Source: an uncultured bacterium
Lineage (GTDB): Bacteria > Cyanobacteriota > Vampirovibrionia > Gastranaerophilales > Gastranaerophilaceae
Assembly: GCA_902796925.1 (NCBI GenBank)
Contig: CADBQW010000097.1
Span: 1-41,804, forward strand
Reading direction: 5' to 3'
DNA length: 41,804 nucleotides
Notes under the pieces: model-generated
Seen by the model: only the letters and a program-made list of their open reading frames with translations
Told to the model about the DNA's origin: nothing
The model's database searches: none
In this document: positions 21,430 through 28,491 of the stretch, one piece after another
Layout of the letters: every line of letters begins with the position of its first letter
How positions within the stretch are numbered: position 1 is the stretch's first letter
Translations under genes and position numbers: made by a program

Positions 21430-23202
21430 TTACTTATTCATATTTTTATAAGAATAAGCGAATCTATCGGTATACGTTGTATGTAATAGTTCATGAGCTT
21501 TATGAGAACCCGGTTTTTCAAGATATTCATCATAAAGCTTTTTAAGGTCCTTGTTATCATGAGAATTTCTGTCTTTTAGTTCTGCATCTTCCTTGTATAG
21601 ACCTTGAGCACGTTCGCTCTTAATCTTAGAATTATCACAACTTATTGGTTGGCCGCCGCCATTAATACAACCACCAGGACAAGCCATAACCTCTAACAAT
21701 TGAAAGTTTGCTGTTCCGTTTTTAATTTCTTGAATGGCTTTTTCGGCTTCTTTCAAGGTAGAAATTACACGAACGACAACCTTTTTGCCCTTAATATCTA
21801 TTTCAACAGATTTTGATCTGTTAGAAGTTCCGCGCATTTCCTTGATGTTTACATCTGCAAGGTCTTCACCGGTTATATATTTATAAGCTGTTCTGACTGC
21901 AGCTTCCGCAACTCCGCCTGATGCCCCAAATATTGTACCGGCACCTGTGTATTCGGCATATGGACTATCCGGTTCCTCACCTTCAAGCTTATCAAAATCA
22001 ATGCCTGCGGATTTTATCATTCTGCCAAGTTCTTGAGTTGTTAAAACATAATCTGTCTTTGGATGACCATCCATAACGTGTTCTGAACGTTTGCATTCAA
22101 ATTTCTTTGCAGTACAAGGCATTATTGCAATAATGGAAATATCTTCACGACTACAACCTAATTGTTCCGGCAATAATTTGGCCAAAATAGGAGACTGCAT
22201 AGACATTGGAGAAGAACAAGTTGATAAATGTTTTAACATATCAGGGTGTTGATCTTCAAGATATTTTACCCATGCCGGACAGCAGGAAGTGAATAACGGA
22301 AGATTTTCACCCTTTGTAACACGCTCAACAAATTCGTGAGCTTCTTCAAGTATAGTCATATCAGCACCGAAATTTGTGTCATAAATGTAATCAAATCCAA
22401 TCTTTCTTAATGCGGCGTAAATCTTCTTTATAGTATTTTCACCGGGTTTTAGTCCAAACATCTCACCCAATGCAACACGTACGGAAGGGGCTATCTGAAC
22501 CGCAGTTTTCTTATTTGGATTGGTAACTTCATTCCAAACATCTTCAATATCAGATTTTATAACAATAGCTCCGGTAGGACAAACAGCCGCACACTGACCG
22601 CAATTTACGCAATCAACTTGACCTAAAGGGCGGCCTGCAAGTGGTTGAACCATTGTTTTGGAGCCACGGTTAGCAAACCCAAGAACTGAGTGCCCTTGGA
22701 ATTCTGTACAAGCTCTTACGCAAGCACCACATAATATACATTTGTTTGGATCTCTAACCAACGATGGCGATGATTCATCTATTTTTACGTAATCTTCCAG
22801 TTGCATCTGAGGGTAACGAATTTTCTTTATACCGTATTCCTCAGAATATTTTTGTAATTCACAAGAACCTGACTTGTCACAAGTTAAACATTCTTTATCG
22901 TGATTTGCAAGCAAAAGTTCAAGAACGGTTTTTCTGATTCGTCTGGTTCTTTCTGTATTAATTTTAACGTTGATACCTGCTTCCGGCGGCATTGTACAAG
23001 ATGAATTTATAACAGTTCTTCCGTTAGGGTATTCAACTTCTACAACACACATCCTGCATGCCCCAAATTGTGTTAAGTCAGGCCGATAACAGAATGTTGG
23101 GACATTCATGCCGGCTTTTCTGATAACCTCTAGAAGGTTAGGTTCATCCGTGAATTGAACCTCTTTTCCATCTATTTTTAATGTTTTTTTATCTTCTGTC
23201 AT
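21430..23202 (-). CDS. hydA: [FeFe] hydrogenase catalytic subunit HydA (electron-bifurcating type, group A3-like)
   Basis: The 590-residue protein makes or uses H2 at an H-cluster. Domains in order: N-terminal [2Fe-2S] (C38, C49, C52, C69); His-Cys [4Fe-4S] site (H101, C105, C108, C114); two ferredoxin clusters (C155-x2-C158-x2-C161-x3-C165 and C198-x2-C201-x2-C204-x3-C208); then the H-cluster signatures TSCCPAW (C307, and C308 as the proton-relay cysteine), MPCTAKKFE (C363) and MACPGGCINGGGQP (C508, C512). All active-site residues are present. With HydB and HydC it should form the cytoplasmic complex that couples ferredoxin and NAD(H) to H2. AAAGGA provides the ribosome site. It is separated from hydB by the inverted-repeat-flanked intervening gene. 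The maturases HydEFG are not in this window. Confidence 0.95.
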   Translation of the reverse strand: MTEDKKTLKIDGKEVQFTDEPNLLEVIRKAGMNVPTFCYRPDLTQFGACRMCVVEVEYPNGRTVINSSCTMPPEAGINVKINTERTRRIRKTVLELLLANHDKECLTCDKSGSCELQKYSEEYGIKKIRYPQMQLEDYVKIDESSPSLVRDPNKCILCGACVRACTEFQGHSVLGFANRGSKTMVQPLAGRPLGQVDCVNCGQCAAVCPTGAIVIKSDIEDVWNEVTNPNKKTAVQIAPSVRVALGEMFGLKPGENTIKKIYAALRKIGFDYIYDTNFGADMTILEEAHEFVERVTKGENLPLFTSCCPAWVKYLEDQHPDMLKHLSTCSSPMSMQSPILAKLLPEQLGCSREDISIIAIMPCTAKKFECKRSEHVMDGHPKTDYVLTTQELGRMIKSAGIDFDKLEGEEPDSPYAEYTGAGTIFGASGGVAEAAVRTAYKYITGEDLADVNIKEMRGTSNRSKSVEIDIKGKKVVVRVISTLKEAEKAIQEIKNGTANFQLLEVMACPGGCINGGGQPISCDNSKIKSERAQGLYKEDAELKDRNSHDNKDLKKLYDEYLEKPGSHKAHELLHTTYTDRFAYSYKNMNK

Positions 23203-23221: not shown

Positions 23222-23242
23222 AAGATAATAAGGCAATAGGGC
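23222..23242 (+). repeat. Left copy of a perfect 21-bp inverted repeat
   Basis: The sequence from AAGATAATAAGG to ATAGGGC is exactly the reverse complement of 23641-23661. It is made of degenerate octamers of the form AAGGCAAT and continues imperfectly into the 3' end of the enclosed gene (TCTAAGGCACTAAGGCA), whose stop codon lies in the repeat array. Confidence 0.95.
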
Positions 23243-23243
23243 T

Positions 23244-23618
23244 CTAAGGCACTAAGGCATTATTACCCTCAATTTGTTTATTGTAGTAGTTTATCAATCC
23301 ATTTAATAGGGCATTTACTTTTGATATCTGAATTTCAGCAGCCTCATAAGTTTCAATATAACCAAGATTTTGTGAAATTATCATTTGCGTATCCAGCTCA
23401 GCCAAAGAACCCAAAGCAATGTCTAAAAATCTGAGGGTTTCCTTATCCGAATGTTTCACTGCACCTTCAGATATATTTGAAGGTATTGATATAACACATC
23501 TTCTTATCTGGCTAACTATACCAAATTGTTCAGATTTTGGATAGTTTGCAGTTATCTGATAAACATATGTCACCAGTTTTATCGCTTCTTTCCAAACTTC
23601 TAACTCTTTGTAGTACAT
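23244..23618 (-). CDS. Four-helix-bundle protein, 23S rRNA intervening-sequence (S23/IVP) family
   Basis: The 124-residue protein matches the TIGR02436-type four-helix-bundle family: YKELEVWKEAIKLVTYVYQ at the start, then FGIVSQIRRCVISIPSNISEGA, where the IRRxxxSIPSNIAEG phrase is the family hallmark, and LGSLAELDTQMIISQNLGYI. Members were first found as ORFs in intervening sequences of 23S rRNA genes and form pentameric basic bundles related to the Avd protein of diversity-generating retroelements; a cellular role is not established. Here it lies inside hydC-hydB-hydA, same strand, between perfect 21-bp inverted repeats. Its ribosome site (AAGAGG) is inside the upstream repeat array, and its last residues (NALVP) and stop are encoded by the downstream array. 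No catalytic residues are expected. Confidence 0.93.
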   Translation of the reverse strand: MYYKELEVWKEAIKLVTYVYQITANYPKSEQFGIVSQIRRCVISIPSNISEGAVKHSDKETLRFLDIALGSLAELDTQMIISQNLGYIETYEAAEIQISKVNALLNGLINYYNKQIEGNNALVP

Positions 23619-23640
23619 TTAAACCTCTTATTGCCTTATT

Positions 23641-23661
23641 GCCCTATTGCCTTATTATCTT
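23641..23661 (-). repeat. Right copy of the 21-bp inverted repeat, within an octamer array
   Basis: This is the reverse complement of 23222-23242. It lies in a longer array of degenerate 8-base units (CTTATTGC, CTTATTGC, CCTATTGC, CTTATTAT, CTTAATGC, then shorter CTTATAT and CTTATTC) spanning about 23627-23680, in the gap between hydB and the four-helix-bundle gene. Confidence 0.95.
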
Positions 23662-23674
23662 AATGCCTTATATC

Positions 23675-25531
23675 TTATTCTTTACCAATAGCTTTGAACG
23701 GGCAACCATTCAAGCAAGCTTCACACTTGATACATTTGTCTTGATTAATCTTATGCACTTGTTTAAGCTCACCTTCGATTGCACCAACAGGACAGGTTCT
23801 TGCACATTTGGTACATCCGCGGCAAAGTTCAGGATTTATAACAATCTTCTTCATTGCCGTACAAACACCTGCCGGACATTTTTTGTCCTTTATATGTGAA
23901 ATGTATTCATCTTTAAAATATTTAAGAGTTGAAAGTACCGGATTCGGAGCTGTTTTACCAAGCCCGCAAAGGGAACCGTCTTTTACCGCAACGGCTAACT
24001 CTTCGAGTAAATCCAAATCTGACATTTCACCTTTACCTGCTACAATTTTTTCGAGAATTTTCAACATATTTTTTGTACCTTCACGACAAGGAACACATTT
24101 ACCGCAGGATTCATTCTGGGTAAAGTTCATAAAGAATCGTGCAACTTCAACAATACAGGTATCTTCAGCCATAACAACAAGTCCGCCTGAACCCACCATT
24201 GCTCCTGCTTTTGTCAAATTATCGTAGTCCATTGGAATATCAAGATGTTCTTCTGTTAAACAACCGCCTGACGGACCCCCGATTTGAACAGCTTTGAATT
24301 TTTTACCGCCACGGATTCCGCCACCTATATCGAATACAATTTCTCTCAAGGTTGTTCCCATCGGAACTTCAATTAAACCGGTATTATTAACTTCACCGGT
24401 AAGTGCAAAAGTCTTTGTACCCTTAGAAGTTTCTGTACCCATTGATGCAAACCAATCTGCACCTTTAAGCATTATAACAGGTACATTAGCCAAGGTCTCA
24501 ACGTTGTTAATCAAAGTTGGGCGGCCAAACAATCCCTTATTCGCCGGGAATGGTGGTTTTGGCCTTGGCATGCCGCGTTCACCCTCAATAGATGCCATAA
24601 GAGCAGTTTCTTCACCGCAAACAAAAGCGCCGGCACCCTCTTTTATATGGATTTCCAAATTAAACTCGGAACCCATTATATTCTTCCCTAAGAAATGGCG
24701 TTCCTCGGCATCTTTTATTGCCTTCCTTAAACGTTGAATTGCAAGCGGATATTCTGCTCTAACGTAGATATAAGCTTCATCCGCACCAATTGCAAATGCT
24801 GCTATAGCGATACCTTCCAACAATTTGTGAGGGTCACCTTCCATAACGGACCTATCCATGAATGCGCCGGGATCCCCTTCGTCGCCGTTACATACAACGT
24901 AAGATTTTCCGCCTCTGTTGGCAGCCGTAAATTTCCACTTTAAGCCGGTAGGGAACCCTCCGCCCCCTCTGCCGCGAAGACCTGATTTGACTATTGTATC
25001 TATAACCGCATCCGGATTATTTTCCTTTAAAACATTAGCTAACGCTTCATAACCTCTTACAGCAATTGCTTCATCAAGGCTTTCTGCATTGATGTGCCCA
25101 CAGTTTGCAAGAGCAGTACGAGTTTGTTTTGCGTAGAAATTAATATCTTCACTTTTTTGAACTTTTTGGTTTGTTTTAGGATCTGTGTAAAGTAATCTTT
25201 CTACGGGTTTACCGCCCTTTATGTGGCTTTCAACAATTTCTTCCACATCTTCCGGTTTTACTTTTACGTATGCTGTGTGAGTTTGCGGAATTATAACAAG
25301 AACCCCTTGTTCGCAAAAACCGTGACAACCGGTTGGTACTATAGTTAGTTTTTCGTAATCGCCAAGAATCGAAACATTTGCACCCAATTCTTCGAATTTT
25401 TTAATAACATTAAGTGAACCGTTAGCCATGCAACCGGTACCGCAACATACCAAAACTCGAAGTCCTTGTTTCTCCACTTCGGCTTGTGCTTTTCTTTGTT
25501 CTTCTTTTATATCAATATTTAGTGTTGTCAT
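23675..25531 (-). CDS. hydB: [FeFe] hydrogenase subunit HydB (NuoF-like, FMN/NAD-binding)
   Basis: The 618-residue protein has three parts. The N-terminal thioredoxin-like [2Fe-2S] domain has C30, C34, C69 and C73. The NuoF core has SGLRGRGGGGFPTGLKW (NADH/FMN loop), NGDEGDPGAFMDRS and the [4Fe-4S] site ESCGKCVPCREGT. A C-terminal ferredoxin domain has two clusters (CRGCTKCARTCP and CIKCEACLNGCP). This is the standard architecture of the diaphorase subunit of trimeric bifurcating hydrogenases, which takes or delivers electrons to NAD. It follows hydC with a gap of 2 bases, so they are co-transcribed and probably coupled. The last codons enter the octamer repeat region upstream of the intervening gene, but the C-terminus (FKAIGKE) looks complete. 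Confidence 0.95.
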   Translation of the reverse strand: MTTLNIDIKEEQRKAQAEVEKQGLRVLVCCGTGCMANGSLNVIKKFEELGANVSILGDYEKLTIVPTGCHGFCEQGVLVIIPQTHTAYVKVKPEDVEEIVESHIKGGKPVERLLYTDPKTNQKVQKSEDINFYAKQTRTALANCGHINAESLDEAIAVRGYEALANVLKENNPDAVIDTIVKSGLRGRGGGGFPTGLKWKFTAANRGGKSYVVCNGDEGDPGAFMDRSVMEGDPHKLLEGIAIAAFAIGADEAYIYVRAEYPLAIQRLRKAIKDAEERHFLGKNIMGSEFNLEIHIKEGAGAFVCGEETALMASIEGERGMPRPKPPFPANKGLFGRPTLINNVETLANVPVIMLKGADWFASMGTETSKGTKTFALTGEVNNTGLIEVPMGTTLREIVFDIGGGIRGGKKFKAVQIGGPSGGCLTEEHLDIPMDYDNLTKAGAMVGSGGLVVMAEDTCIVEVARFFMNFTQNESCGKCVPCREGTKNMLKILEKIVAGKGEMSDLDLLEELAVAVKDGSLCGLGKTAPNPVLSTLKYFKDEYISHIKDKKCPAGVCTAMKKIVINPELCRGCTKCARTCPVGAIEGELKQVHKINQDKCIKCEACLNGCPFKAIGKE

Positions 25532-25533
25532 AA

Positions 25534-26028
25534 TTATTTGCCCTCACTCATCAATGTATCAAGTACAATTTTTACCGCATCAGATGTCATTTGCGGGTAT
25601 ACCTTTTCATTAATAACCACAACCGGAGCAAGTCCGCATGCTCCCAAACAACTAACTGTTTCAACGGAAAACATACCATCATCAGTTGTCATCTGACCGT
25701 CTTTTAACTTTAATCTTGATTTTATGGCATTGAGCACAGGCATAGAGCCTCTTACGTGACAAGCTGTACCGTCGCAACATTTTATTTCATATTTCCCTTT
25801 TGGTTCCAATGAAAACTGTGCATAAAAGGTTGCTACCCCATAAACTGTTGCAGGTGATAAACCCTCTATTTTTGTTCCGATATAAATGATTGCATCTTCC
25901 GGCAAATATTTAAACTCCGCTTGAACTGCTTGCAAGATTGCAATCAAGTTTGCTTTGTCATAATTGTACTGAGCCATAATGCTATCTAACTTCATGGTAT
26001 CAATCTTTTGATGACTTTCCACACTCAT
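25534..26028 (-). CDS. hydC: [FeFe] hydrogenase subunit HydC (NuoE-like)
   Basis: The 164-residue protein is a thioredoxin-fold [2Fe-2S] subunit of the NuoE family, with ligands C85, C90, C127 and C131 (CDGTAC ... SCLGACG). Upstream are an all-helical domain and the conserved SPATVYGVATFYAQF phrase. It passes electrons within the HydABC complex. It is the first gene of the operon, with ribosome site AAGGAG eight to nine bases before the ATG at 26028. The 126 bases separating it from the divergent DUF486 gene should hold both promoters. On the minus strand I see only weak boxes (TTGCTT, then AATAAT 16 bases on, about 26060-26090). Confidence 0.94.
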   Translation of the reverse strand: MSVESHQKIDTMKLDSIMAQYNYDKANLIAILQAVQAEFKYLPEDAIIYIGTKIEGLSPATVYGVATFYAQFSLEPKGKYEIKCCDGTACHVRGSMPVLNAIKSRLKLKDGQMTTDDGMFSVETVSCLGACGLAPVVVINEKVYPQMTSDAVKIVLDTLMSEGK

Positions 26029-28053: not shown

Positions 28054-28153
28054 ATTCCAATCAATAATTTAAGGGGCTTTTTCTGTCGCTTGACCCTGCA
28101 GTCTATTTTCTTGTGTCGACAAGCAGTAGCGTACATTTTGTACGCAAATTGAA

Positions 28154-28222
28154 GGCAATAAAACCCTCGTGGCAAGGATAAGGGACATTCCCCTCTTATT
28201 GCCCTATGGCCTTATGGCCTTT
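28154..28222. repeat. Octamer repeat remnant related to the hydrogenase-operon element
   Basis: AAGGCAAT appears at 28152, and then CTTATTGC, CCTATGGC, CTTATGGC and CTTTTATT run as consecutive 8-base units from about 28196. The order and preceding CCTC match the array at about 23625-23660 (CCTCTTATTGCC...). The two outer copies are inverted relative to each other but enclose only about 35 bases and no gene, so this may be an empty or decayed version. Confidence 0.55.
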
Positions 28223-28491
28223 TATTAACTTATTCCAATCAATTATCCCGTCATTTACCCTCATTTTTCAACTGTCTTAAATCCTCGAATTCCCCACCCT
28301 GCGTGGTGGACCCACCCCCATTATATGCCCCCGGGGTCAAACCTTTATTAAGAAATTGTTACAATCCGTAACAGAATTCACCAAAAATTAGTTCAGTATT
28401 CGTTTGGATTAAAAATAAATCTTTTCACTTTTAATAAAAACACACTGCCTGACCGTATATTTATATAATTGTAAATTTTTCTTCATTAATA

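Follow-up and report, generated by a model that had tools for sequence, protein, structure and literature searches.

A probable mobile element between two hydrogenase genes, related to the intervening sequences of 23S rRNA

Why should a gene of the family found in 23S rRNA intervening sequences lie between two genes of a hydrogenase operon, enclosed in inverted repeats? The IVP (S23p) proteins became known in the 1990s, and we know of no function assigned to them. The block that raises the question was found in a stretch of 41,804 nt, called hereafter the window, whose relevant features are:

21430–23202, minus strand: hydA, [FeFe] hydrogenase, downstream gene of the operon (Fe_hyd_lg_C, 300 bits)
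23222–23661, minus strand: whole element, arm to arm, with the hydB stop on one side and the hydA ribosome site on the other
23222–23256, minus strand: 3' arm, an inverted copy of the array, overlapping the last codons and stop of the IVP gene
23244–23618, minus strand: IVP-family four-helix-bundle gene, 124 aa (PF05635, 114.9 bits; PDB 2GSC, E 5.9e-24)
23624–23629, minus strand: ribosome binding site AAGAGG, read from the sequence, where the 5' array degenerates at its inner end
23627–23661, minus strand: 5' arm (relative to the gene), 8-nt units AAGGCAAT/AAGATAAT, in an array that reaches 23671
23675–25531, minus strand: hydB, upstream gene of the operon (Complex1_51K, NADH_4Fe-4S)
25534–26028, minus strand: hydC, 2Fe-2S thioredoxin-like subunit, at the head of the visible part of the operon (PF01257)
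28152–28226, no strand assigned: gene-less array copy of the same family as the window arms (one unit plus an inverted array)

Anatomy of the block

Genes on the minus strand follow the order hydC, hydB, IVP, hydA, and the IVP gene is the only one between the arms. Its score with the PF05635 profile (23S_rRNA_IVP) far exceeds the cut-off of 33.8 bits, as does its score with TIGR02436 (four helix bundle protein, 112.2 bits for a cut-off of 24), and a relative of solved structure is XCC0516 (2GSC). The arms, 35 nt each, are complementary over 91% of their length (23222–23256 versus 23627–23661). They include a perfect inverted core of 21 bp (23222–23242 and 23641–23661), which gives 21 unbroken pairs in the predicted RNA fold, and arrays of 8-nt units are present on both sides (23229–23259 and 23627–23671). 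Local alignment of the window arms scored 27.5, whereas shuffled flanks reached 13.0 at most.

The original prediction had placed an IVP-family gene in sense orientation within the operon, between hydB and hydA, with perfect 21-bp inverted repeats at the block ends and with the last codons, stop and ribosome site of the gene inside the repeat arrays. Each of these points is confirmed. Folding of the segment was likewise as anticipated: the predicted RNA of the block is at −122.7 kcal/mol (z = −4.97 versus shuffles), a predicted strength that only restates the inverted repeat.

Several simpler identities were considered. A classical transposon or insertion sequence was rejected, as there is no transposase gene between the arms, and the window IVP has Pfam matches to IVP and bAvd alone. 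The element gave no signal over shuffle level for a role as intrinsic terminator or internal promoter, PADLOC gave no match to a defence gene, and no family was matched in an Rfam search of the window.

Paired arms and their exchange between operons

A search of 383 genomes of the bacterial family of the window revealed 90 with an IVP match over the cut-off. There, 100 IVP loci were read, which correspond to 74 non-redundant elements. At 93 of the loci, the IVP gene lies between two co-directional genes and is read in the same direction; the other seven are at contig ends or at a miscalled groES (L040 duplicates the genome and site of L290, at which groES was located). This orientation result is limited to the window's family, because the gene caller was crude in other phyla. 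Median distances are 0 nt between the 5' arm and the preceding stop codon and 27 nt between the end of the 3' arm and the start codon that follows; from arm to arm the elements span a median of 444 nt. About 20 different junctions are used, with gene names taken from a reading of the neighbours, not from a family search: rimP-nusA (27), groES-groEL (25), tyrS-cysE (8), rfbC-rfbB (7), rfbB-rfbD (6), hldE-lpxD (6), porA-porB (4) and others.

Paired arms are found in nearly all of these elements. For the 74 non-redundant elements, the inverted-pairing score of the flanks had a median of 24.5 (shuffles: mean 8.7, maximum 13.0), and 70 elements beat every shuffled control. A stricter control, in which arms were swapped between elements, had a 99th percentile of 24.0, which 38 of the 74 exceeded; this level is higher because similar units are common to many elements. 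The upstream flank matched itself strongly in 67 of 100 elements, with a period of 8 or 7 in 59, versus none after shuffling. The units themselves vary widely from one element to another (AAGGCAAT, AAGTGAAT, AAGACGTT, AAGTTTAT, AGTGAAT and others). In a wider sample, composed of 80 loci from Bacteroidota, candidate phyla, Chloroflexota, Cloacimonadota, Planctomycetota and others, plus 22 viral contigs, 61 of the 102 elements scored over the 99th percentile of arm swaps. The contigs classed as viral (L252–L273) also bear IVP genes with heptamer arrays, and are a possible vehicle of transfer.

To follow the arms through divergence, relatives at the same junction were compared, cross pairing being that of the 5' arm of one element with the 3' arm of the other. 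Below 30% protein divergence, pairing within and across elements was about equal. At 40–50% protein difference cross pairing was 10.8, whereas pairing within elements was about 26–27. The within value was the greater in 344 of 345 pairs, and in 29 of 37 untied disjoint pairs (p = 0.0008). Since pairing within elements is kept while pairing across them is lost, the arms are not simply an old inverted repeat in decay, and have been changed or replaced as pairs.

Comparison of junctions revealed occupied and empty sites among relatives. In one genus, 14 of 30 groES-groEL gaps are occupied and the remainder measure 11–137 nt; in another, 6 of 29 rimP-nusA gaps are occupied. The short remnants of the two arms at L303 match those of L300 and have the appearance of a scar left by deletion. 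Inheritance along host lineages as the sole explanation was ruled out by the incongruence between IVP and host: IVP distances are uncorrelated with those of NusA or RimP (Mantel rho −0.01) and weakly correlated with those of GroEL (rho 0.37), and some pairs have identical GroEL fragments with IVPs 37% apart. The elements L027 and L050 are 97–100% identical from arm to arm, while the flanking rimP and nusA are 79% and 89% identical. Arms and gene therefore travel together, as expected from the proposal that gene and ends form one unit, and arm-gene-arm is shown to be the unit of inheritance and transfer. Presence or absence at the same junctions in relatives, a property of mobile genetic elements, is shown as well.

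Movement to a new kind of junction appears to be rare. IVP lineages are faithful to their junction (22 changes, versus 64 expected by shuffling). A point against a mobile element is that exchange of the conserved genes on either side, by recombination, might transport the elements. By eye, no target-site duplication was evident, the empty gaps being short and variable. In the IVP tree, which is based on a short alignment and has many weak forks, the window IVP falls within the rimP-nusA clade, where its neighbours are a pair from a radical-SAM/acs junction and a single rimP-nusA element; its place at hydB-hydA thus looks like one of the rare moves to another junction.

The hydB-hydA junction itself was inspected in 29 relatives, including G001 and G002 of the same genus. 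None has an IVP gene there, and the gap is mostly 2–50 nt; the element of the window is an addition to this junction. Relatives carrying the gene at this locus without inverted repeats, which would have spoken against the original prediction, were not found, and carriers at other junctions nearly all have the repeats. Two of the relatives have other insertions between hydB and hydA. G019 (locus L144) has a gene-less inverted array whose units are those of its own rimP-nusA IVP element. G013 (locus L165) has a DUF559 endonuclease-like gene within unrelated inverted palindromes (CCCTCCC...GGAGGGG), another case of an intercistronic gene in a palindrome. The gap thus tolerates several kinds of insertion. 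Because so many junctions are used, and because the 29 relatives lack the gene here, the hydrogenase context is incidental.

These distributions bear on the possibility that IVP is an ordinary operon gene, which would regulate its own translation or that of the host operon through the leader arrays, in the manner of TRAP. The ribosome site at the array end is consistent with it, as are the selection on the protein (see below) and the presence of about 4–5 units per array in a family that forms a pentameric ring (2GSC; PMC4990558). Against this stand the sporadic presence of the gene, its horizontal exchange, the empty sites in close relatives and the unrelated operons; moreover, the downstream inverted arm is left unexplained. 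We regard such a regulator as improbable.

Dispersed gene-less arrays and the IVP protein

A search for other genomic copies with the same ends, one of the checks proposed at the outset, revealed dispersed gene-less arrays. Counts rest on pattern searches genome-wide. The array type of the window has 45 matches in its own genome and 0–1 in its two congeners; that of L027 has 42 and 60 in its two carriers and 0–3 in three congeners. The groES-groEL type was found in all 12 junction carriers searched (4–71 matches), which are related and do not amount to 12 independent cases, and in none of six congeners lacking the element at that junction. Dispersed arrays thus mostly follow the resident IVP type. 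For the L104 type, G222 has 107 matches, whereas G365 and G068 hold just the two arms of their element. The arms are therefore transferred along with the gene; dispersal is host-dependent and is no automatic result of carrying the element.

The dispersed copies include several gene-less inverted pairs (L364, L353) as well as direct arrays in larger repeats near pilin-like genes. At L012, L014, L024 and 28152–28226 of the window, direct arrays of the octamer seen in the window, with a higher-order periodicity of about 75 nt, precede type-II pilin-like genes and also lie at many ends of contigs; in places they follow a long G run, and the assembly breaks there. At L353 (G019), two array types are nested, a gene-less inverted pair of the AAGACGTT type adjoining arrays of the AAGGGAAT type.

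The abundance of these copies raises the question of whether IVP is a mere passenger, captured by a host-specific dispersed repeat that another enzyme would spread in trans. Gene-less arrays indeed far outnumber the single IVP gene, no recombinase, nuclease or transferase motif is known in IVP, and the DUF559 gene of G013 is also held in an inverted palindrome at hydB-hydA. However, the IVP family is tied to paired arrays of unrelated sequence in many phyla, and the arms travel with it into genomes that have no dispersed repeat. Furthermore, dN/dS values of 0.04–0.22 (33 pairs) point to strong purifying selection on the gene, which argues that the protein is produced and is important to whatever agent keeps the element. 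A passenger IVP is in our view unlikely.

The reading that we prefer, with a probability of roughly 0.7, is that the block represents a single copy of an intercistronic element capable of horizontal movement, made of the IVP gene, which would be read along with the host operon, and two inverted arrays of 7–8-nt units that mark its ends. Elements of this kind occupy, in sense orientation, the gap between the stop codon of the preceding gene, which they directly follow, and the ribosome site of the gene downstream. Only occasionally do they settle at a new junction, of which hydB-hydA is an example. The IVP protein, whose solved relative 2GSC is a pentameric ring (PMC4990558), may bind the arrays as DNA or RNA; both its own element and the gene-less copies may require it in order to move or be maintained, in the way that a transposon depends on a protein bound to its ends.

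RNA stem or DNA, and relation to known elements

Arms selected as a stem in the sense RNA should contain more G-U than A-C mismatches. No such excess was found in the arms of the window's family (90 versus 87) or in those of other phyla (82 versus 155). The match between the arms consequently gives no evidence for a selected RNA stem, although folding or cutting of the transcript is not thereby disproved; the test is weaker if arms are renewed by copying. The asymmetry in the other phyla (L172–L251) is opposite to that of a sense-RNA stem, and would fit pairing of the complementary strand or a mutation bias.

These counts weigh on the proposal that the block is an mRNA intervening sequence, whose paired arms would let RNase III excise it or split the operon mRNA and so set the HydB:HydA ratio. 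The predicted 35-bp stem and its strong fold are what this proposal requires, the elements are in sense and inside operons, and the homologous rRNA element of Coxiella is excised by RNase III (PMC4990558). The mismatches, however, show no G-U excess in one sample and run the wrong way in the other, and the many unrelated operons, together with the 29 relatives without the element at hydB-hydA, argue against a conserved dosage role. We therefore hold this proposal to be rather unlikely. Within the mobile-element reading, RNase III might still cut the paired arms of the transcript, by analogy with 23S rRNA; this would part the hydB from the hydA mRNA and leave translation of both unstopped.

The 23S rRNA intervening sequences of Coxiella, Leptospira and others share with the block an IVP/S23p gene within a stem of terminal inverted repeats, heptamer tandem repeats before the start, a sporadic distribution and a length of about 430–440 nt (PMC4990558). 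In Coxiella, the stem has 28 bp, heptamers precede the IVP start, RNase III excises the sequence and the ORF is reported to be decaying; mobility of the rRNA elements is a hypothesis only (PMC4990558). The kinship and common anatomy suggested by the original prediction are supported by the PF05635 match and the paired arms, since the block has terminal inverted repeats able to pair around an ORF. Unlike the rRNA elements, those described here lie in intercistronic gaps of protein operons and not inside an rRNA gene, their arms consist of repeat arrays differing from one element to the next, gene-less relatives are dispersed in the genome, and the IVP gene, unlike what is reported for Coxiella, is under purifying selection. 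The block is accordingly best described as a probable intercistronic mobile relative of the 23S rRNA intervening sequences.

Two other systems resemble it. In REPIN/RAYT systems, as here, gene-less inverted repeats are dispersed in genomes that have one gene with matching ends; they differ in having REP hairpins in place of tandem 7–8-nt units, no RAYT (tyrosine transposase) gene was found at the element, and here the IVP gene is itself horizontally mobile. Foldback (FB) transposons of Drosophila likewise have inverted arms of short tandem repeats around a gene, and gene-less derivatives, whereas the present element is bacterial, about 440 nt long, intercistronic, sense-oriented and has no known transposase.

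The Avd protein of diversity-generating retroelements is a homologous four-helix bundle (PMC10053308). The window IVP is not an Avd: it scores under the cut-offs of bAvd (31.1 versus 40 bits) and DivGenRetAVD (34.9 versus 80), no reverse transcriptase was seen beside it, and its neighbours are hydrogenase genes. IVP genes have also been reported in cas operons, for instance between cmr3 and cmr2, and regarded as CRISPR-associated (PMC3936711). Being of the same family and between adjacent operon genes, these may, by analogy, be intercistronic elements of the present kind. No earlier account of IVP elements outside rRNA genes was found in the literature searched, which consisted mostly of open-access papers.

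More generally, but only tentatively and at a little short of even odds, IVPs may constitute an undescribed, phylum-spanning class of minimal mobile elements. These would consist of one gene of about 120 codons and a pair of tandem-unit arms, settle at the stop codons of operon genes and spread copies without the gene in trans; the rRNA intervening sequences would be a special case, and the function of IVP would be array binding for mobility.

The operon elements provide what has been missing so far, namely junctions with and without the element, its transfer as one unit, selection on the protein, and gene-less copies that match it. IVP function thereby becomes testable in cultured bacteria such as Flavobacterium. 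The elements make up a small class found between housekeeping pairs such as groES-groEL and rimP-nusA, and may account for the IVP genes reported within cas operons.
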